Positions 5,139 through 50,941 of a stretch of DNA of 64,000 bases are shown here, piece after piece. The stretch covers positions 123,233 through 187,232 of the forward strand of contig JAPPMU010000052.1 in the NCBI GenBank assembly GCA_028873965.1, in the 5' to 3' direction. The translations under genes were made by a program, and so were the position numbers. Position 1 is the first letter of the stretch, and every line of letters starts with the position of its first letter. The DNA is from Chloroflexota bacterium (lineage in GTDB: Bacteria; Chloroflexota; Dehalococcoidia; Lucifugimonadales; UBA3495). Under the pieces are notes generated by a model. It was not told the origin of the DNA, ran no database searches, and saw only the letters and a program-made list of their open reading frames with translations.

Positions 5139-6092
5139 GTGACCGCCCTGCCCATCGAGAAAGAATCAGCTGGCCCGGCTTCAGTAGAAGACGTGCAGTC
5201 TCTCCTGCGCGACCAGGCTTACATAACCGACCGGGGGTTGGCCATCGCCATCTTCCTCGCGTTGAAACTGCGCCGCCCGCTGTTCCTGGAAGGCGAGGCC
5301 GGCGTCGGCAAGACCGAGATCGCCCGCGCCCTGGCCACCGGCCTGAGCACCGACCTGATCCGCTTGCAGTGCTACGAGGGCCTCGATGTCAACCACGCGG
5401 TGTACGAGTGGAACCACACCCGCCAATTGCTGGAAATCCGCTTGATGGAAGCCCGGCGCGACGCGGGCAACGGTGGCGCGCCGGACGTAGATCTGTTCAG
5501 CCCGCAGTTCCTGATCAAGCGCCCCCTTCTCGAAGCCATCGACGAGGGACGTGACCGCGCCCCGGTGCTCCTCATCGACGAGCTCGACCGCTCCGACGAG
5601 GAGTTTGAGGGGTTCCTCCTGGAACTCCTGGCCGACTACCAGATCACCATACCCGAGCTGGGCACCTTTCACGCCGCCTTCCCGCCCGTGGTGGTCATCA
5701 CCTCCAACCGCACCCGCGAGGTGCACGACGCGCTGAAGCGACGCTGCCTCTACTACTGGGTAGATTACCCCGATTACCAGAAGGAGCTCCAGATCGTCAC
5801 CGCCCGGCTGCCGGACGCCCCCCGCCAGCTTGCCCAGCAGGTCACCGGGTTCATCCAGGAGCTCCGGGAGACCGAGCTCTACAAGATCCCCGGCGTCTCC
5901 GAGACCCTGGACTGGACCTCAGCGCTGATGGCGCTGAACATGCGCGAGCTGGAACCCGAGGTCATCGACGACACCCTGGGCATCATGCTCAAGTACCAGG
6001 ACGACATCGAAGCCGTGCGCGGCGAACCGGCCCGCGCTCTCCTGGAGCGCTCCCGCAACCGTGGCCCCCGCCGCGGCGGGCGGCGGGGGTAG
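5139..6092 (+). CDS. MoxR-type AAA+ ATPase
   Basis: A 317-residue AAA+ protein. Walker A is FLEGEAGVGKTEIARALA (about residues 48-65) and Walker B is VLLIDELDRSDEEFEGF (about 144-160). The sensor segment VVVITSNRTREVHDALKRRCLYYW is typical of MoxR. It is closest in style to the CoxD/MoxR subgroup that helps insert metals or activate partner enzymes, usually beside a VWA-domain gene. No VWA gene is next to it here, so its client is unknown. GTG 5139 follows a GGAG site; the frame is open further upstream but overlaps the previous gene. The C-terminus is Arg/Gly-rich. Confidence 0.8.
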   Translation: MTALPIEKESAGPASVEDVQSLLRDQAYITDRGLAIAIFLALKLRRPLFLEGEAGVGKTEIARALATGLSTDLIRLQCYEGLDVNHAVYEWNHTRQLLEIRLMEARRDAGNGGAPDVDLFSPQFLIKRPLLEAIDEGRDRAPVLLIDELDRSDEEFEGFLLELLADYQITIPELGTFHAAFPPVVVITSNRTREVHDALKRRCLYYWVDYPDYQKELQIVTARLPDAPRQLAQQVTGFIQELRETELYKIPGVSETLDWTSALMALNMRELEPEVIDDTLGIMLKYQDDIEAVRGEPARALLERSRNRGPRRGGRRG

Positions 6093-6156: not shown

Positions 6157-6675
6157 ATGGACCGACTTTTTGAATCACCGGACTTCGAAGGCATCCCGCC
6201 CCTGAGTGTGGAAGTCGTCGATGAAGCCCTGAACCGGGGCGACATCACCGCGGCGGAGTTGTTGATGCTGTACTTCGCCTGCGCCACCGCCGAGCCGGAG
6301 GATACCGGTGAACTGAGCGATGCGGCGGAACGCATCGCCGACTACCTGCTCGACCTGGCGGAAGATGAAGACGAGGATGCGGCCATGGCGCTCATGGCTT
6401 TGAACACTCTTCTGTCCGATGACAACTCCGAGGCCGCCCGGATCGTCGGCGCCGAGATGTTCCGCTCCGTCACCATTCGCTCCGTGCTGCGCAACGTCAT
6501 CGCCGACCGGATGGAAACGGAAGAGGCCGCCGCCGCGATAATGGTCATCAACTCCCTTACCGCGCATCATCTCGGCGTGGACCTGGACGATGTTGATGAC
6601 GTTGATCTGGACGATCTGGCGGCCATGCTGGGCGGCTCCGACCTGGATTGGGATGATGACCTCGATGACCGTTAA
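6157..6675 (+). CDS. Acidic hypothetical protein
   Basis: A 172-residue very acidic protein with no family I recognise. Residues 1-135 look helical, with Ala/Leu-rich helices (AAELLMLYFACA, AMALMALNTLL). The last 35 residues are an Asp-rich tail with repeats such as DLDDVDDVDLDDLAAM. There is no signal peptide or membrane segment. It lies between the MoxR ATPase and the FAD oxidoreductase, overlapping the latter by 11 bases, so it is probably cotranscribed. The tail could bind divalent metal or a basic protein; that is only a guess. Confidence 0.6.
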   Translation: MDRLFESPDFEGIPPLSVEVVDEALNRGDITAAELLMLYFACATAEPEDTGELSDAAERIADYLLDLAEDEDEDAAMALMALNTLLSDDNSEAARIVGAEMFRSVTIRSVLRNVIADRMETEEAAAAIMVINSLTAHHLGVDLDDVDDVDLDDLAAMLGGSDLDWDDDLDDR

Positions 6676-7852
6676 CAATAATATGCCTCGCCACGTCGTC
6701 GTCATCGGCGCCGGCATCGTTGGCGCCTCCATCGCCTGGCGCGTCGCCTCCCGGGGCGCCCGCGTCACCATCCTCGATCGCGCTGAGCCCGGCAGTGGCG
6801 CGTCCAGCCACAGCTTCGCCTGGATCAACGCCGGCGCCAAGGAACCCGTCGGCTACCACAACCTGAACCGCCGCTCGCTGGAAATGTGGCCCCGTTTCGC
6901 CGACGCCCTGGGCGAGGACGTCGGCCTCCGGTGGGGCGGCAAGCTCGCCTGGGAAGTCGAACCGGAGGCTGCCAAAGCCCTGGTCGCCCGCGTGCAGCAG
7001 CTCCAATCGTGGGGTTATCCCAGCCGCCTCGTTTCCCGCGAGGAATTGCAGGAACTCGAGCCCGCCCTGAACATCGGCCCTGTCGTCGCGGCGGACTATA
7101 ACGAGAATGAGGGACAGGTCGAGCCGCAAATGGTTGTCAACGCTTGCCTCAACCGGCTGCGCGAACTGGAGGCTTCCATCGTCACCGGCGCCGCAGTCAC
7201 CGGATTGCGTAAGGACTCGCAGGACCGCGTCGTTTCGGTTCAAACCGCCGCCGGCGACATCGACGCGGACATCGTGGTCGTTGCCGCCGGTACCGCCACC
7301 ACCGCCGTGGCCGCCTTGGCCGGCTTGAACGTCCCGCAGGCCGAGAGCCCGGGCGTGGTGATCCGCACCACCCCCATGCCGTCGCTGTTGCAAAACGTGC
7401 CCGTGGTTTACGCTCCTCCCCTGGAGGACGGCCGCCGTGAAATCCACCTCCGCCAGTGCCCCGACGGCCGCCTCATGATCGGCGAAGGCGACCAGGAAAG
7501 CCTCGCCGAGGACGACAGCCAGGCCCACGCCGACGACCTGCTGGCCCGGGCCTGCCAGCATCTGCCGGGACTGACTGGCGCCACCGCTATTCCCGTGCCC
7601 GTTGGCTGGCGCCCCATGCCCCTGGATGGTTATCCGGTCATGGGGTTTGCGTCAGAGGCGCCCAACCTGTACGTTGCCCTTACCCACAGCGGGGTCACCC
7701 TGGCCCCGGCTCTGAACCAGCTCGCCGCATTGGAGATCTGCGACGGCGCCCGGGCTGATGCCGTTCTCGGACCCTACCGTCCCGAGCGGTTCGCGGGCAT
7801 GACGCCGGAGACCGCGTCACAGATGGAACACCCGCGCGCCCGGCACCGCTAA
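6665..7852 (+). CDS. FAD-dependent oxidoreductase (DAO/glycine oxidase-like)
   Basis: A flavoprotein of 395 residues. The N-terminal HVVVIGAGIVGASIAWRVA is the Rossmann GxGxxG motif, followed by the acidic ribose contact in VTILDR. SGASSHSFAWINAGAK matches the FAD-binding stretch of D-amino-acid oxidase-type enzymes (glycine, sarcosine or D-amino-acid oxidases and dehydrogenases). The C-terminal segment GWRPMPLDGYPVMGF and LTHSGVTLAP is the second FAD-binding part. It probably oxidises an amine or imino acid. ATG 6665 overlaps the preceding gene; ATG 6683 is an equally good start with the usual MPRHVVVIG beginning. Confidence 0.85.
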   Translation: MTVNNNMPRHVVVIGAGIVGASIAWRVASRGARVTILDRAEPGSGASSHSFAWINAGAKEPVGYHNLNRRSLEMWPRFADALGEDVGLRWGGKLAWEVEPEAAKALVARVQQLQSWGYPSRLVSREELQELEPALNIGPVVAADYNENEGQVEPQMVVNACLNRLRELEASIVTGAAVTGLRKDSQDRVVSVQTAAGDIDADIVVVAAGTATTAVAALAGLNVPQAESPGVVIRTTPMPSLLQNVPVVYAPPLEDGRREIHLRQCPDGRLMIGEGDQESLAEDDSQAHADDLLARACQHLPGLTGATAIPVPVGWRPMPLDGYPVMGFASEAPNLYVALTHSGVTLAPALNQLAALEICDGARADAVLGPYRPERFAGMTPETASQMEHPRARHR

Positions 7853-9583: not shown

Positions 9584-9844
9584 ATGAATGACCTATATGA
9601 ATGGGACGAGGCCAAGCGGCGGATCAATTTGGATCAGCACGCCCTTGATTTCGAGGATGTGCGCCAATTTGGTTGGAATACCGCTATCATCAAGTCAAGC
9701 GACCGCGGTGGCGAGTCCCGCTGGATAGCCTACGGCTATTTTGAGGACCGGCTGCACGCAGTGGTATACACTTGGCGCGGCGACGTAAAGCGCATCATCA
9801 GTTTTCGTCCCGCTAGGATCAGCGAGGTACAGCGACATGGCTGA
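9584..9844 (+). CDS. brnT: BrnT family toxin (RNase)
   Basis: An 86-residue protein with the BrnT pattern: YEWDEAKRRINLDQHALDFEDV at the N-terminus, then RWIAYGYFEDRLHAVVYTWRGDVKRIISFRPA. BrnT is a small RelE-fold-like RNase toxin neutralised by BrnA, which also represses the operon. The BrnA-like gene starts before the toxin stop with an 8-base overlap. Length and motifs are normal, so activity is likely. Confidence 0.85.
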   Translation: MNDLYEWDEAKRRINLDQHALDFEDVRQFGWNTAIIKSSDRGGESRWIAYGYFEDRLHAVVYTWRGDVKRIISFRPARISEVQRHG

Positions 9845-10247
9845 TGGATACTTGGAAAACGGCCTTACGCCGGAAGAACTGGCCGCTTTGCCACCTTACG
9901 AAAAGGTTGCCAACTTGACCTTTGTCGAAGTTGAGGCTCTTTACGGTGAAGAAACGGCTATCTGCGTTGGCATTGCGAAGGATCCTGATACCTGGGTGCC
10001 CACCGATGAAGAATTCGCCCAGATGCGCCCAGCAATCGAAGTCGAACCAGAATGGGTCGAGGCCCACCGCGCCGGCAGGATCAAAATGCCACCACGTCCG
10101 CCCGTAACCAAGGTGCAGCAAGAGGTCGTCCTGGACAGCGACATCGTGGAATTCTTCGAGCACCTCGACCCCCATTGGCAGAAAGGCCGCCTCAACGACT
10201 TCCTGCGCATTGTCATCTTCAAGCGCCACCCGGACAGCACGCCATAG
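9837..10247 (+). CDS. BrnA-like antitoxin, extended
   Basis: A 136-residue protein overlapping BrnT. The C-terminal part (QQEVVLDSDIVEFFEHLDPHWQKGRLNDFLRIV) is the ribbon-helix-helix-like BrnA domain (about residues 97-130). The preceding 95 residues are longer than usual for BrnA, acidic and rich in Pro and Glu, probably the toxin-binding part. It should bind BrnT and the operon promoter. Its long N-terminus is a mild oddity for the family. Confidence 0.75.
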   Translation: MADGYLENGLTPEELAALPPYEKVANLTFVEVEALYGEETAICVGIAKDPDTWVPTDEEFAQMRPAIEVEPEWVEAHRAGRIKMPPRPPVTKVQQEVVLDSDIVEFFEHLDPHWQKGRLNDFLRIVIFKRHPDSTP

Positions 10248-45743: not shown

Positions 45744-45840
45744 TCATTGCGACGGCAATCTCGTTGGGGCAAGGAACGCTGCTGCGGGAACGAGATCGCC
45801 ACGTCGCTTCGCTCCTCGCGATGACAAACTGGGTACGCGT
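45743..45840. repeat. Palindromic repeat D, copy 1
   Basis: GTCATTGCGACGGCAATCTCG at the left and CGAGATCGCCACGTCGCTTCGCTCCTCGCGATGACA at the right form a large imperfect palindrome, ending in the tail AAACTGGGTACGCGTGAGCC. It abuts the family B element. The same repeat occurs at 53336 and 54823. Confidence 0.65.
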
Positions 45841-45868
45841 GAGCCCGGCCATTGACCGGAATGCCCGG

Positions 45869-45877
45869 TGTTATAAT
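45869..45877 (+). promoter_or_regulatory. Extended -10 promoter for the beta-hydroxyacid dehydrogenase
   Basis: TGT-TATAAT at 45869-45877. TTGACC at 45852-45857 is only 14 bases upstream, so the extended -10 probably does most of the work. Confidence 0.5.
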
Positions 45878-45928
45878 TCGGCCACTTGCCGCCGTTCGAG
45901 TATCGGCGCGTTTCAGGAGCAAAAACCT

Positions 45929-46834
45929 ATGAAAGCTGGGTTTATCGGGGTTGGCAACATGGGCAACCCCATGGCCGCTAACATGATCAAGGCTGGGCAT
46001 CAGCTCACCGTACACGACCTGCGCCGCGAATCGGCCATCAATCTGCTGGAAATGGGCGCCGAGTGGTCCGATTCCCCGGCCGGCTGCGTCAGCGGCAACG
46101 ATGCCGTGTTCACCTCCCTGCCCGTGCCGCGGGACGTTGAAGCCGTGGTGATGGGCGAGAACGGCATCATGTCCGCCGCCAACTCCGGCGACGTTTACGT
46201 CGACCTGTCCACCAACTCCCCGACCGTCATTCGCCGCATCCACGACGAGTGCGCTGCCCGTGGCGTGACCGTGCTCGACGCTCCCGTGAGCGGCGGCGTC
46301 TATGGCGCGGCCGCCGGCACCCTTGCCGTCATGGTCGGCGGCGACGAGGAGACCTACAACTCCGTCAAGCCCATGCTCGACGCCATTGGAACCCACGTCG
46401 TCTATTGCGGCGAAATCGGCAACGGCATGGTCACCAAGATCTGCAACAACCTGCTATCCATGGGCATCGGCGTCCTTATGTCTGAGGCTCTCACCCTTGG
46501 TGTCAAGGCCGGCGTCTCCCTGGAAACCCTCGCCGACGTCATCGCCAACAGCAGCGGCGGCAACCGTCGCTTGGTCGAGAAGTTCCCCCGCTATCTCTTC
46601 GCGGACAACTTCGAGCCCGGCTTCGCCACCGCCCTGGCCGCCAAGGACGTGCGCCTCGCCACCGACCTCGGCCGCGAGTACGGCATCCCCATGGAACTGT
46701 CCAACCTGGTCGACCAGCGCCACGTCGAAGCCCTCTTCCGCGGCTGGGGCCCCGAGGACTCCGACGCCGTCGCCAAGCTCCAGGAGGAAAAATCCGGCGT
46801 CCAACTCCGCTTCGGCAACATGGGCGGCAACTGA
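45929..46834 (+). CDS. NAD(P)-dependent beta-hydroxyacid dehydrogenase
   Basis: A 301-residue enzyme of the 3-hydroxyisobutyrate/tartronate-semialdehyde reductase family. It has KAGFIGVGNMGNPMAANMIKAGH (Rossmann GxGxxG), VLDAPVSGGVYGAAAGTLAVMVGG (substrate motif) and YCGEIGNGMVTKICNNLLSMG with the catalytic Lys. The C-terminal helical domain ends near residue 290. Substrate is not decided by sequence. CAGGAGC precedes ATG 45929. Confidence 0.88.
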   Translation: MKAGFIGVGNMGNPMAANMIKAGHQLTVHDLRRESAINLLEMGAEWSDSPAGCVSGNDAVFTSLPVPRDVEAVVMGENGIMSAANSGDVYVDLSTNSPTVIRRIHDECAARGVTVLDAPVSGGVYGAAAGTLAVMVGGDEETYNSVKPMLDAIGTHVVYCGEIGNGMVTKICNNLLSMGIGVLMSEALTLGVKAGVSLETLADVIANSSGGNRRLVEKFPRYLFADNFEPGFATALAAKDVRLATDLGREYGIPMELSNLVDQRHVEALFRGWGPEDSDAVAKLQEEKSGVQLRFGNMGGN

Positions 46835-46872: not shown

Positions 46873-47208
46873 GTGTTCCGATCGGCCCATCCCACCACCG
46901 GCAAGCCCGCGTACATCACGCGCTACGTGTACGCGGACACCACCCTGTCCACCCACGGTGGAAATGTCGGCAAGGTCAGCGTAACCAGCGAAGAGCACAC
47001 CCGCCTCCAGCAGATGGCCGAATACCTTGAGCGTTGCTGTAATGATCTCGACGCCGCCGGCTACGACGTCATATCCATCACTCCGGTTATCAGCGGCCGC
47101 ACCGCGTACACTCACACCGAGACTACCGATATCCACCCCGGCCACGGCTACAGCGTTACCGACGGCTTGATCGTCACCGGCCGTCTCAAGACCAACGAAA
47201 CCGGATAA
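46873..47208 (+). CDS. Hypothetical protein
   Basis: A 111-residue soluble protein with no family I know. GTG 46873 starts RSAHPTTGKPAYITRYVYAD; a helix EEHTRLQQMAEYLERCCNDLDAAG at residues ~40-63 is followed by strands (YDVISITPVISGR, GYSVTDGLIVTGRLK). The helix-then-strands layout is that of a small alpha/beta domain. It overlaps the following PaREP1-like gene by 1 base. Confidence 0.55.
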   Translation: MFRSAHPTTGKPAYITRYVYADTTLSTHGGNVGKVSVTSEEHTRLQQMAEYLERCCNDLDAAGYDVISITPVISGRTAYTHTETTDIHPGHGYSVTDGLIVTGRLKTNETG

Positions 47209-47615
47209 TGAGTCAGTCCTCTCCCATCGAACCTTTCAACGAGCCCGCGGTCGCCATCGCCGACTACCGTCAGCAAGCCCGCGAGTTCCTGGTGAGGAGC
47301 CGCCAGTACCTGGCCGACGACGACCTGCACCAGGCATCCGAAAAAGGCTGGGGCGCGGCGGCTTGGATGGCCAAGGCCGTCGCCGAAGCCCAAGGATGGC
47401 AGTACAAGCGTCACGAAGAGTTCGCGGATATCCTCAATCGAACTCGCAACGCGTCGGGAGATGAAAGGTTGCGTGATTACCGGCGTGTGGCTAACGAATT
47501 GCACGGCTACTTTTACACTCGCAAGAGGTTCCTGGACTCTGAAGACATCGGAAATGGTTTGGATCGCATAGCCGAGCTCCTCGACATCCTCGAACCCCTC
47601 ACCGAAACCAGCTAA
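47208..47615 (+). CDS. PaREP1-like helical protein, copy 1 of a tandem pair
   Basis: A 135-residue helical protein with ARE FLVRSRQYLADDDLHQASEKGWGAAAWMAKAVAEAQGWQYKRHEEF as conserved core, the same core as the next gene and related to 18045. HEPN-related proteins of this type often form toxin-like or nucleotide-binding modules. It overlaps the next copy by ATGA. No nucleotidyltransferase partner is adjacent. Confidence 0.7.
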   Translation: MSQSSPIEPFNEPAVAIADYRQQAREFLVRSRQYLADDDLHQASEKGWGAAAWMAKAVAEAQGWQYKRHEEFADILNRTRNASGDERLRDYRRVANELHGYFYTRKRFLDSEDIGNGLDRIAELLDILEPLTETS

Positions 47616-48046
47616 TGAGCTCAGGCCAACCCATGACCCAATCCTCTCCCATGGAACCTTCCGACGGTCCCGCGGAAGAAATCGCCGACTACCGCCGTCA
47701 GGCCCGCCAATTTCTGCTTAAAAGCCGTCAATACCTCGCCGAGGATGACCTGCACCAGGCATCCGAAAAGGGCTGGGGCGCGGCGGCCTGGATGGCCAAG
47801 GCGGCCGCCGAGGCACAAGGTTGGCAGTACAAAAAGCACGACCAGTTCAACGTTGTGCTCAATAATGCCCGTCTATTGACCGGAGACGACCGATTGCCAG
47901 GGCTGCGCGGTATTGCCAACGACCTGCACACCAACTTTTACAAACGCAAGCTGTTGCTGAACGCCGACGCCATTGCTGTAGACTTGGACCACATCTCGAC
48001 CCTCCTCGAAATCCTCGAACCCCTCACCGAAACCAATGCACCTTAG
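47615..48046 (+). CDS. PaREP1-like helical protein, copy 2
   Basis: A 143-residue paralogue of the preceding gene with nearly the same core (ARQFLLKSRQYLAEDDLHQASEKGWGAAAWMAKAAAEAQGWQYKKHDQF) and the same ending (LLEILEPLTETN). The pair arose by tandem duplication. ATG 47615 overlaps the previous stop; ATG 47633 is a possible second start. The next gene follows by 10 bases. Confidence 0.7.
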   Translation: MSSGQPMTQSSPMEPSDGPAEEIADYRRQARQFLLKSRQYLAEDDLHQASEKGWGAAAWMAKAAAEAQGWQYKKHDQFNVVLNNARLLTGDDRLPGLRGIANDLHTNFYKRKLLLNADAIAVDLDHISTLLEILEPLTETNAP

Positions 48047-48055
48047 GAGTCCCAC

Positions 48056-49084
48056 ATGACCAGCAGCGCAGAACGCCACGTCGAAACCGCCGACACCATC
48101 GAGGCCATCGAGGAGTGCTTCCGCCTCGGTTGGACCGATGGCCTCCCCGTCGTCCCGCCGGCCGATTACAAGGTCCGCGAAATGCTCTCCGCAGCCGGCC
48201 TCACCGGTGAGGAGGAACTGATCAACCTCGACATGCGCAGCCGTGTCATCACCTCCGAGAACGCCGCCGCCAACGCCGTAATGGCCGGCTGCGAGGCCAG
48301 TTATTTCCCCGTCCTCGTCACCGCCCTGCGCACCCTCGAGGAAGAGCGCAACTTCGTCAACATGGCCGCTTCCTCCACCAGCTCGCCCACGATACTCATG
48401 GTCCTCAACGGTCCAATTCGGGATGAGTTGGGCATCAACAGCCGCGATGGTCTCTTTGGCCCCGGCTTCCGCGCCAATGCCAGCATCGGCCGCGCCGTCC
48501 GCCTCTGCTTCATGAACGGCTTCGACGCCTGGCCCGGCCAACTCGACCGCGGCACCCTGGGCACCCCGGCCAAGTTCACCCTCTGCATCGCTGAAAACGA
48601 GGAGACGTCCCCCTGGGAACCGCTCCACGTCAGCCGCGGCTTCGACGCCTCCGACAGCGTGGTCACTGTCGCCGTCGCCTACAACCCGGTCAGCGTGCCC
48701 AATAGCTACGCCCACACCGGTCGTGCCATCCTGCTGTCCATCTGCGACGCCCTGCGCTCCGCCGCCCTCGCCCATCGCTACCCCGCCCAGTGGGTCATCG
48801 TCATCGGACCCGAACATGCCCTTACTCTTCAGGGCGATGGCTGGACCCGGCGCGACATCCAGGACTTCCTGATCGAAAATAGCGGCCGCTCCCGCGCCGA
48901 ACTGGTGCGCCTCGGCTCCAAGCAGGGCCCCGAGCGCCCCGGCGACGAGGAACTCATCATGCGCTGCGCCAACGATCCCGATGACATCCTCATCATGCAC
49001 GGCGGCGGCACCGGCGGCCGCTACAGCGCCATCATCGACACCACCGGCTACCGCATCCGCACTCGCAAAGTCACCGCCAATTAG
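48056..49084 (+). CDS. Conserved hypothetical protein of a UGSC-linked cluster
   Basis: A 342-residue protein of unknown function. ECFRLGWTDGLPVVPPADYKVREMLSAAGL opens it; GCEASYFPVLVTALRTLEEE, ASSTSSPTILMVLNGPIRDELGINS and LIMHGGGTGGRYSAII follow. I recall similar proteins encoded close to UGSC selenoproteins, as here (the UGSC gene starts 0.9 kb downstream), but cannot prove this. It has no signal peptide or membrane helix and no Cys pair of thioredoxin type. Confidence 0.6.
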   Translation: MTSSAERHVETADTIEAIEECFRLGWTDGLPVVPPADYKVREMLSAAGLTGEEELINLDMRSRVITSENAAANAVMAGCEASYFPVLVTALRTLEEERNFVNMAASSTSSPTILMVLNGPIRDELGINSRDGLFGPGFRANASIGRAVRLCFMNGFDAWPGQLDRGTLGTPAKFTLCIAENEETSPWEPLHVSRGFDASDSVVTVAVAYNPVSVPNSYAHTGRAILLSICDALRSAALAHRYPAQWVIVIGPEHALTLQGDGWTRRDIQDFLIENSGRSRAELVRLGSKQGPERPGDEELIMRCANDPDDILIMHGGGTGGRYSAIIDTTGYRIRTRKVTAN

Positions 49085-49085
49085 C

Positions 49086-49898
49086 ATGACCACCCAACTG
49101 CCTCAAAATCCTTTCCCCGGCATGAACCCGTACCTGGAGCGCCCTGAGCTTTGGCACGGAGTGCACACTCGCGTTATTGTCGAACTGGGCAATACCTTGG
49201 CGCGTCATCTCCGGCCCGAGTATATGGTGCGCGTTGAGGAGAGGATGTACGTTTCGGCGGAGACCGACGACGAAATCCGCCTCCAAGCTCGGTTGCCCGA
49301 CGTTATGATCCTGGACGACGGCGCCGGAGCGGCAACCTCGGTGGCGGTGGCCCCCCGCAGCAAGGACGCAATCCCAGTGCGCATACCCTATCAGGATGAG
49401 CAGCGGCAACGGTACCTTGAGGTAATTCGCGTCAGCAATCGCGAAGTAGTCGCGGTGATCGAACTGCTCTCTCCCAGCAACAAGACCAACCCCGGCCGTC
49501 AAGCCTACAAAGCCGAGCGCAATCAAGTGTTCCACAGCACGTCGCATCTGGTCGAGATTGACTTGCTCCGTGCCGGCCAGCCCATGCCAGTGATTGGCGA
49601 TGTGCCGCCCAGCCACTATCGCATCCTGGTGACGAATACCCACGCCACTGATGGCCTTGCCGACTTGTACCCTTGCAGCATCCAGACACCCATACCCGTC
49701 TTCGTCATGCCCCTGGCGGAAGGCTCCGAAGGCATAGCCATCGACCTGAAGCCCATCATCGATGAGGTTTACCTCCTCGGCTCCTACGACCGGGACATCG
49801 ACTATGACCAGGACCCCACTCCGCCCCTTCCCGACCCCGACCGTGCATGGATCGACCAACTCCTCCGCAGTCAGGGGTTACGCAACCGAGCCGTTTGA
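49086..49898 (+). CDS. DUF4058 family protein
   Basis: A 270-residue protein with the DUF4058 opening NPFPGMNPYLERPELWHGVHTRVIVELGNTLARHLRPEYMVRVEERMYV, then VIELLSPSNKTNPGR, where Glu and Lys are those of a possible PD-(D/E)xK nuclease-like core. DUF4058 proteins are common in cyanobacteria and Chloroflexota with no proven role. ATG 49086 lies one base after the preceding stop, so it is in the same transcript. Confidence 0.8.
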   Translation: MTTQLPQNPFPGMNPYLERPELWHGVHTRVIVELGNTLARHLRPEYMVRVEERMYVSAETDDEIRLQARLPDVMILDDGAGAATSVAVAPRSKDAIPVRIPYQDEQRQRYLEVIRVSNREVVAVIELLSPSNKTNPGRQAYKAERNQVFHSTSHLVEIDLLRAGQPMPVIGDVPPSHYRILVTNTHATDGLADLYPCSIQTPIPVFVMPLAEGSEGIAIDLKPIIDEVYLLGSYDRDIDYDQDPTPPLPDPDRAWIDQLLRSQGLRNRAV

Positions 49899-49956
49899 TT
49901 GTACAATCCGCCCATCATCGTCTTCCCATTTCGACACGTACCGATGGAGGTAACGC

Positions 49957-50517
49957 ATGACAACCGCTGAATCGAGCCGACTCCGGCTTGTCAACCCCAA
50001 AGGCACCGAGTTGCCCCAGTCCGAGTTCCGCATGAACGACCGGTCCGCCGGCCTTGCCGGCAAGCGCCTCGGCCTCATGGAAAACTCCAAGGCCAACGCG
50101 GGTGCACTCCTTATGGAGCTCGGCAACATCCTCAACGAGCGCCACGGCTTCTCCGAGATCAAGTTCTACGACAAGGGCCACGCCAGCCTCCCCGCGCCGC
50201 AGCAAACCATCGATTCCATTCTCGGTGAGGTGGACTACCTCATCACTGGGGTCGGGGATTGAGGGTCCTGCAGCTCGTGCAGTGTGCACGACGGAATCGA
50301 CTTCGAGAAGCGCGGCGTTCCCACCGCGGCCATCATCACCCATGTCTTCCTCAACACCGCCCAGGCCATGACCCGCATGATGGGTGTGCCCGACTACCGT
50401 TACGTGGTCGCCCAGCATCCCCTGTCCAGCCTCACCGACGACCAGGTCAAGGCCCGCGCCGCTGAGATCGCCGACGAGGTGGAGTCCATCCTGACCGGCC
50501 AACCCGTCGCCGCTTAA
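49957..50517 (+). CDS. UGSC family selenoprotein (Sec at TGA 50260-50262)
   Basis: A 186-residue protein read through TGA at codon 102. The frame is ...ILGEVDYLITGVGD-U-GSCSSCSVHDGIDFEKRGVPTAAI..., matching the UGSC motif of a known family of (seleno)proteins. Unread, it would appear as two unrelated ORFs. It starts at ATG 49957 with a strong GGAGGT site five bases before. A hairpin at 50275-50291 serves as a candidate SECIS. The UGSC Sec and the following Cys are probably a redox centre. Neighbours are DUF4058 and a FlK-like thioesterase, 25 bases downstream. Function of the family is unsettled. Confidence 0.88.
50275..50291 (+). promoter_or_regulatory. Candidate bacterial SECIS hairpin for the UGSC gene
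   Basis: TCGTGCA (50275-50281) and TGCACGA (50285-50291) form a perfect 7-bp stem with loop GTG. The loop starts 20 bases after the last base of the TGA, within the 16-37 range of known bacterial SECIS elements, and has G as its first base. It would bind the SelB-Sec-tRNA complex. Confidence 0.65.
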
Positions 50518-50542: not shown

Positions 50543-50941
50543 ATGGCGACTCCCGGAGCTTCGCAACCGTCTCGCCTGCCTATCGACCCGGCCATCCGGC
50601 CCGGTCTGGCAGGCGAAACTCAATTGACCGTTGCCGCCGAGCACCTCGCTCCCCACACTCCCAAGTTCAGCACCCCGGCCATGGTCATGCTCATGGAGCA
50701 GGCCTCCTATCAGGCGGTATTGCGTCTGCTCCACCCGGACCAGACCGTCGTCGGCTACGAGGTAAACGTCAAGCACCTCGCCCCGGCCGACGCTGGGTCA
50801 GTCGTCTCCGCCCGATCCGTCCTCACCGATGTATCCGGCAACAAGCTCCGCTTCGAAGTCGAGGCCCGTCACGGCGATCTGTTGCTCGGAACGGCTGAGC
50901 ATAGAATGGCCATCGTGACCCAGGAGCCAGTCGAAGGTTGA
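50543..50941 (+). CDS. FlK-like hotdog thioesterase
   Basis: A 132-residue hotdog-fold protein. STPAMVMLMEQASYQAV holds the Thr and Glu, and VNVKHLAPADAG the His of the Thr-Glu-His triad of fluoroacetyl-CoA thioesterase FlK and relatives. It probably hydrolyses a short acyl-CoA; fluoroacetate specificity cannot be claimed. It follows the UGSC gene by 25 bases and likely shares its message. Length fits the family. Confidence 0.8.
   Translation: MATPGASQPSRLPIDPAIRPGLAGETQLTVAAEHLAPHTPKFSTPAMVMLMEQASYQAVLRLLHPDQTVVGYEVNVKHLAPADAGSVVSARSVLTDVSGNKLRFEVEARHGDLLLGTAEHRMAIVTQEPVEG

Follow-up and report, generated by a model that had tools for sequence, protein, structure and literature searches.

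The window analysed here is a 64,000-nucleotide stretch of DNA from a Chloroflexota bacterium, and it contains a UGSC-family gene whose reading frame runs on beyond an in-frame TGA. The locus raises the question of whether this TGA is read as selenocysteine (Sec), and of which reaction the protein takes part in and with which neighbours. According to the GOS survey (PMC2398784), UGSC ranks among the most abundant selenoprotein families of aquatic environments, and a 2026 review lists it among the selenoproteins with largely uncharacterized functions (PMC13188914). The features of the window that are discussed below are as follows.

45929-46834, + strand: 3-hydroxyisobutyrate-dehydrogenase-like gene, upstream (PF03446, E 3.4e-49; start inferred from the domain, ORF 45764-46834)
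48056-49084, + strand: partner protein, 342 aa, unclassified family, probable second subunit
49086-49898, + strand: DUF4058 gene between partner and UGSC (PF13267, E 7.9e-80; start chosen within ORF 48981-49898)
49946-49950, + strand: GGAGG, probable ribosome-binding site of the UGSC gene (direct reading, 6 nt before the ATG)
49957-50517, + strand: UGSC-family selenoprotein gene, 186 residues, predicted Sec at residue 102
50260-50262, + strand: TGA predicted to be read as selenocysteine (Sec102), motif U-G-S-C
50275-50291, + strand: SECIS-like hairpin, 7-bp stem with loop GTG (TCGTGCA-GTG-TGCACGA)
50543-50941, + strand: FlK-like hotdog thioesterase, downstream neighbour (PF22636, E 1.1e-25)

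The UGSC gene and its in-frame TGA

The gene starts at the ATG at 49957 and ends at the stop at 50515-50517, which gives 186 residues when the TGA is read through. The start site is as the first-pass annotation described it, with both the ATG and the GGAGG sequence in place. Translation across the TGA gives ...LITGVGD-U-GSCSSCSVHDGIDFEKRGVP.... The protein's match to PF24696 (UGSC) extends from residue 11 to residue 180, before and after the TGA, with an E-value of 1.3e-55 and 188.6 bits against a cut-off of 25. It also matches NF041046 (UGSC family (seleno)protein) with 151.7 bits against a cut-off of 125. Since both scores exceed the cut-offs and the match spans the TGA, the first-pass assignment of 49957-50517 to a UGSC-family selenoprotein is well founded. 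The UGSC motif occupies residues 102-105. Residues Sec/C102, G103 and C105 are invariant in 52 of 52 aligned sequences (Sec read as C); the second Cys of UxxCxxC varies among them.

Seven UGSC matches, with one in-frame TGA each, were found in the genome to which the window belongs (3.88 Mb in 70 contigs, completeness 96.94 and contamination 7.31); at this level of contamination, a different organism could be the source of one or more of them. Among 301 genomes of the phylum, exactly one in-frame TGA lies inside the full-length match in 72 of 75 UGSC matches. The remaining three have no in-frame TGA. Two of them (L181 and L183) lie at a contig end or at a run of N, where the codon is not assessable, and in the third (L180) the motif is lost. 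The latter is a second copy near 6384-6872 of its locus in genome G178; it reads GFGDTRSGS in place of U-G-x-C and adjoins a Sec-containing UGSC-partner copy. Judging from the lost motif, this second UGSC-partner copy is possibly a non-catalytic paralogue.

Decoding of the TGA

The first-pass annotation had also described a perfect 7-bp hairpin with a GTG loop behind the TGA. Covariation over 79 relatives and a synonymous-recoding test both support this element. Across the 79 distinct sequences the seven stem pairs are formed in 91.0% of cells, compared with 81.2% in shuffles (0 of 500 as high). The covariation score is 0.225 compared with 0.075 in shuffles, with 0 of 500 reaching it, and all six slid registers fall below the hairpin's own register. 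The outermost position of the stem, U-A in the window, can pair in the standard way in just 46 of the 79 sequences. Four pairs have changed on both sides, which is less striking because 63 of 500 shuffles match this number. When genes were compared with their synonymous recodings for stability, the stretch from +12 to +36 after the TGA fell in the 5% tail in 69 of 79 genes; in the control stretch from +36 to +60, only 2 of 79 did so. The window's own gene gives a z-score of -3.0 in this comparison (p 0.027).

The TGA could alternatively be an ordinary stop, with the downstream frame a decayed or separate gene. Standard ORF calling does split the gene, and the simple fold z-score is unremarkable, as the 51 nt from the TGA in the window are not exceptional against dinucleotide shuffles (z 0.48). 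Rfam at gathering scores gave no match within the window. However, the hairpin covariation and recoding tests, the single TGA inside the full-length match in nearly all of the phylum matches, the Cys codons or TAG at the same position in other organisms and the presence of Sec machinery in the window's genome all speak against an ordinary stop, and we regard it as extremely improbable. The first-pass annotation had named two findings as contrary to its reading, a lack of Sec machinery and an ordinary stop with no conserved downstream frame. Neither is the case: the genome has one tRNA-Sec above the gathering score, with selA, selB and selD all above their cut-offs, and the frame 3' of the TGA is conserved across the 52 aligned sequences. 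A selA match occurs in 250 of the 301 phylum genomes, including all 32 UGSC genomes, and is weak only in G217; its presence therefore hardly discriminates the UGSC genomes. Taken together, the computations show that the frame around the TGA is conserved, that the hairpin behind it is under selection and that the genome has the genes for Sec machinery. This sequence evidence supports the predicted reading of the TGA at 50260-50262 as selenocysteine. The selD gene of the same genome (L204, G000:C10:54762-55679) has one in-frame TGA itself, as in selenocysteine-containing SelD proteins.

Cys codons and TAG in place of TGA

The GOS survey counts 255 Sec forms and 21 Cys forms of UGSC (PMC2398784). 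In the UGSC genes on an Arthrobacter plasmid and on three haloarchaeal plasmids, the Sec position is occupied by TGC or TGT. Geodermatophilus ruber (L084, L198, L184, L193) has TAG at the Sec codon of one UGSC gene (L084:6747-6749) and TGC in two, and all of them adjoin the partner. UAG is able to encode Sec in the family of Geodermatophilus ruber. A literature search found no paper on UAG-encoded Sec in this family. The plasmid p2-T1 of Acidovorax sp. T1 (L230), which is typed as conjugative, carries a UGSC gene with an in-frame TGA at 5707. In the record its CDS, labelled hypothetical protein, stops at this TGA, an analogue of the split which, according to the first-pass annotation, conventional annotation would make of the window's gene.

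A partner protein that accompanies UGSC

The conserved protein at 48056-49084 had been listed as one of several neighbours that are useful clues, and it turned out to carry more weight than the first-pass annotation gave it. A public-genome scan with the partner alignment returned at least 583 relatives. The best 80 of them, six further stretches of the window's genome and the window itself make up 87 loci. UGSC lies within 2 kb of the partner on the same strand in 76 of the 87 loci, with the split TAG case (L084) counted as a match. Two of the 11 loci with no UGSC within 2 kb end close to the partner (L048, L081), and in L071 UGSC is 5.2 kb off. In the remaining eight UGSC is absent from the examined stretch, but it is found elsewhere in all eight genomes.

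The same association is seen among the 301 phylum genomes. UGSC is present in 32 and the partner in 32, with both in 31, or 31 of the 33 positives (Fisher p 6e-40, uncorrected for kinship). The two exceptions are G251, which has UGSC only, near a contig start, and G073, which has the partner only. In the window's genome each of the seven UGSC genes has a partner paralogue adjoining or fused to it. Natural UGSC-partner fusions are thus observed. The 2008 GOS survey describes UGSC fused to a second domain, 'Unknown_1' (PMC2398784), which is perhaps the partner.

Genes around the pair

The other two neighbours proposed as clues, DUF4058 and the FlK-like gene, did not hold up as pathway clues and are rejected. 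DUF4058 had a tblastn match in 0 of the 86 other loci. The FlK-like gene had one in 5 of 86; only the copy in L036 is near-identical (91.5%), and the other four are 30-36% identical. The partner of L036 is 96% identical to that of the window, and there UGSC and partner lie about 0.12 kb apart with no gene between them. DUF4058 therefore appears to have been inserted into the pair in the window and not to belong to the conserved unit. The upstream 3-hydroxyisobutyrate-dehydrogenase-like gene has 74-94% identical copies in the close orthologous loci L036-L039, and L037-L039 have subunits resembling NAD-type formate dehydrogenase 3' of the pair. Two tandem similar ORFs lie upstream of the partner at 47208-48046 of the window. 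The first matches PaREP1/HEPN, and among the 86 loci they have a relative in L036 only.

Outside the groundwater genome described in the next section (G303), no shared third gene stood out among the 121 nearest genes. The commonest neighbour families there, each found five times or fewer, are MFS, amidohydrolase, alpha/beta hydrolase, NHL, Sugar_tr and TctC. Several of these loci have TRAP, TctC, ABC or MFS transporters. A PLSDB search gave 24 plasmid records with a match to the partner and seven with a match to the UGSC protein; eight plasmid loci were examined, among them one from Sporomusa. An Arthrobacter plasmid has the order trxB-trxA-partner-UGSC, 3' of an ABC transporter. A Roseovarius plasmid has partner-UGSC-trxB with a TRAP transporter nearby, and a Variovorax plasmid has trxB within the UGSC-partner cluster. 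Three haloarchaeal plasmids have TRAP or TctC components, CoA transferases or lyases near the pair. The trxB linkage, in 3 of the 8 plasmid loci examined, is a minority one; among the 86 genome loci trxB occurs in one and trxA in one, and neither gene is near the window copy.

Multiple copies in a groundwater Chloroflexi MAG

G303, the genome of locus L098 (record JACPQD01; loci L206-L225), is a MAG of roughly 5.0 Mb that is assigned to the Chloroflexi and comes from groundwater. It has at least 150 UGSC matches (150 scored of 208 candidates), and among the matches listed three have no in-frame stop. A degenerate TGA motif gives 168 matches in this genome compared with 7 for the reversed pattern. 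In 400 kb chosen for richness in UGSC matches, there are 68 UGSC and 66 partner matches. TGA stands at the Sec position of all 68 UGSC genes. The reading frame continues into the partner in 54 of the 68, and for 66 of 68 a same-strand partner is found no more than 400 nt away. Compared with synonymous recodings, the hairpin stretch falls in the 5% tail for 48 of the 68 genes and the control stretch for 7 of 68; in 34 of 68 all pairs of the hairpin form in exactly the register seen in the window. ARAGORN found no tRNA-Sec within the 400 kb.

Pairwise distances of UGSC and of partner are correlated over 64 of the 68 G303 pairs (r 0.903, with 0 of 2000 permutations as high), and the two proteins have the same nearest neighbour in 25 of the 64. 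By computation, the two genes behave as one unit both in where they are found and in how they evolve. Of the other ORFs in the 400 kb, 163 are 150 aa or longer. The scan covered 99 of these and omitted L206, a stretch devoid of UGSC, and the end of the list; 53 of the 99 match SBP_bac_5, a family of solute-binding proteins.

Mixing of strains is disfavoured as the cause of this expansion. The median pairwise identity of the 68 UGSC copies is 0.27, and 1 of 2278 pairs is above 90%. In addition, 23 copies lie within 180 kb of one 350-kb contig, which makes mixing unlikely. According to the 2026 review, the largest set of bacterial selenoprotein genes numbers 63, from a Methylomirabilota MAG, and the earlier maximum was 57; the review adds a warning about co-assembly (PMC13188914). 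This warning applies to the G303 MAG too. If the G303 expansion holds, one selenoprotein family would more than double the largest reviewed bacterial selenoproteome.

Similarity to glycine and proline reductases

UGSC has been grouped with thioredoxin-fold proteins in publications (PMC2398784, PMC13188914). The AF2 model of UGSC (pLDDT 90.2) has a Rossmann-like order of strands and helices, with Sec102 placed between strand 94-99 and helix 103-118. No thioredoxin was found among 50 of the 1650 PDB matches of the model, these 50 being weak themselves. On this predicted structure we reject a thioredoxin-like fold for UGSC.

The similarity searches lead to component B of glycine and proline reductase. 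Among the 52 UGSC members, 25 match TIGR01917 (glycine reductase selenoprotein B; best E 5.9e-7), 18 match TIGR01918, 17 GrdF, 12 GrdH and 11 PrdB; 27 of the 52 miss TIGR01917 at E 0.1. The evidence is at the level of the family and does not come from the window protein alone, which had no match at E 1 to TIGR01917 or to PF07355 (GRDB), the latter a model of 347 positions against 186 aa. In hhalign, UGSC aligns with 19 GRDB sequences at Prob 94.3 and E 1e-7, with Sec aligned on Sec. When the four UGSC columns were masked, the E-value was 2.6e-5 against the GRDB set and 5.8e-6 against four GrdB sequences; these columns are properly blanked in the UGSC alignment, and those blanked in the GRDB alignment miss the Cys owing to a gap. 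The controls, one reversed alignment (against two GRDB sets) and five column-shuffled alignments, gave E 0.015 or worse. The four GrdB sequences score 45.6-49.7, compared with at most 21.5 for 260 other ORFs, and one GrdB-type protein reads UGSCNRC.

By these computations the Sec domain of UGSC is a predicted distant homologue of the Sec domain of GrdB, the selenoprotein B of glycine, sarcosine and betaine reductase (TIGR01917/TIGR01918), and of PrdB of D-proline reductase (TIGR04483), both in Pfam GRDB (PF07355), with Sec on Sec. The two groups share U-G-x-C, (E)xxG(I/V)P and HP stretches. They also resemble each other in working beside a larger second subunit, and trxA/trxB may be linked in both. 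Unlike GrdB and PrdB, UGSC has no N-terminal GRDB domain. In the glycine-reductase-type complex the second subunit is of the pyruvoyl GrdE/PrdA type, whereas the UGSC partner was rejected as a homologue both of GrdE (Prob 0.33 against three GrdE sequences) and of GRDB (Prob 0.45). The pyruvoyl chemistry of glycine reductase is therefore not carried over to UGSC.

The short selenoprotein-B-like GRDB proteins of Chloroflexota (for example L035 and L148-L164) resemble UGSC in being short Sec proteins with U-x-x-C and a related domain. Their similarity to UGSC is weak, however, and they lack a UGSC motif of the G-S/G-C type. Fifteen of them score 15.6-28.0, with 3 of the 15 below the best unrelated ORF (21.5), and UGSC against 16 of them alone gave Prob 15.7 and E 3.7e-4. 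One such gene is in the window's genome (L035, G000:C8, near 9715-10128), with an in-frame TGA in T-P-T-U-P-L-C.

These results bear on the possibility that UGSC is a general thiol or selenol oxidoreductase (a peroxidase, disulfide reductase or similar) and that the partner is its redox client or helper. The UxxC motif, the published grouping with Trx-fold proteins and the occasional trxA/trxB neighbours would suit such a function. The Rossmann-like model with no thioredoxin among the 50 listed PDB matches, and the GrdB homology, do not. One dedicated partner per copy and a large paralogue radiation near solute-binding proteins would also be unusual for redox defence, and we consider this function decidedly unlikely.

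Predicted structure of the partner

The partner had no credible match in Pfam or NCBIfam and no relative by sequence in the PDB, both with 60 members and with the wider set of 80. Stray family matches were at E 0.011 or weaker and involved few members. The AF2 model of the partner has a pLDDT of 93.6, and its PDB structure matches are weak (best E 1.3e-3, TM about 0.2). The top 18 Foldseek matches are cyanuric acid hydrolase, barbiturase and related Toblerone-fold chains, with TM 0.17-0.22 and rmsd 11-15. A Toblerone-fold cyclic-amide hydrolase was not accepted as an identification and counts as a weak hint. Conserved polar residues include D28, N141, R146, N154 and E180 in 60 of 60 members and C79 in 58 of 60. 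In the model C79 comes directly before helix 81-95, and this predicted position would be a usual place for a reactive thiol.

The resemblance to cyclic amide hydrolases, weak as it is, and the amidohydrolase, CoA-transferase and lyase neighbours could suggest that UGSC and partner form a non-reductive lyase, hydrolase or transferase in which Sec is a plain nucleophile and the partner supplies the active site. We judge this to be unlikely. The structural matches are weak, as given above, and the GrdB homology points to reductive chemistry. To our knowledge, Sec is rarely retained for non-redox chemistry.

Proposed enzyme

Given that UGSC usually adjoins the partner and is distantly related to glycine reductase, the two proteins probably form an enzyme for the breakdown of small molecules. 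We lean slightly towards a two-component, sometimes fused, catabolic enzyme in which UGSC would be the Sec subunit and the partner the other subunit, and which would cleave carbon-heteroatom bonds reductively. The reductive part of this reading comes from the GrdB homology, namely the TIGR01917 matches, the hhalign alignment, the masked comparison and the scores relative to the 260 ORFs. The uptake and catabolic part is drawn from the SBP_bac_5 genes of G303 and from the TRAP, TctC, ABC and MFS transporters in several other loci. Thioredoxin is suggested as the donor by the trxB-trxA-partner-UGSC order in Arthrobacter, by trxB in Roseovarius and Variovorax, and by the trxA and trxB genes linked to the glycine and betaine reductase clusters of clostridia and Sporomusa, as reported in PMC4517662. 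Against this explanation, the trxA/trxB linkage is a minority one and no gene other than the partner recurs strongly outside G303.

In the proposed reaction, a small molecule would be imported via a solute-binding protein or permease and bound by the partner. The Sec selenolate, at the start of its helix, would attack carbon and expel a heteroatom leaving group. The resulting Se-alkyl or selenenyl-sulfide intermediate would be resolved by the invariant C105 (UxxC), perhaps together with C79 of the partner, and electrons would come from thioredoxin. The paralogues would differ in substrate, with C-N, C-S, C-O and C-halogen as candidate bonds. We infer this scheme of uptake, a partner that serves as substrate subunit, Sec attack, heteroatom release and reduction by thioredoxin.

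A more far-reaching reading is that the pair represents an undescribed class of Se-dependent reductases which opens carbon-heteroatom bonds in many imported substrates and combines a GrdB-type Sec domain with a new substrate subunit that is no relative of GrdE. The 150 or more copies in G303, many of them near solute-binding proteins, would then be substrate-specific and would form the largest selenoproteome on record. We put this forward tentatively, as plausible but short of probable.

Relation to the published family

The window protein agrees with the published UGSC family (PF24696, NF041046) in its full-length match above both cut-offs and in its U-G-S-C motif, and the family has a precedent for fusion. 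It differs from the published picture in that a separate, unclassified partner is defined here, along with a predicted fold that is not thioredoxin-like and a relation to GrdB. A literature search by title and abstract, outside subscription journals and preprints, found no description of a UGSC partner, of a GrdB relation or of an expansion of the G303 type. The recurrent partner, the distant homologue of known chemistry and the cultured carriers (Arthrobacter sp. ERGS1:01, Roseovarius sp. THAF8 and haloarchaea) make this a testable two-protein enzyme.

A minor observation concerns phosphosulfolactate synthase, which had no match in the 86 genome loci. Genes annotated as this enzyme lie near Cys-form UGSC-partner pairs in Arthrobacter (L226:5710-6498) and Natrinema (L228:4889-5356), and these neighbours are possibly a link to sulfonates.
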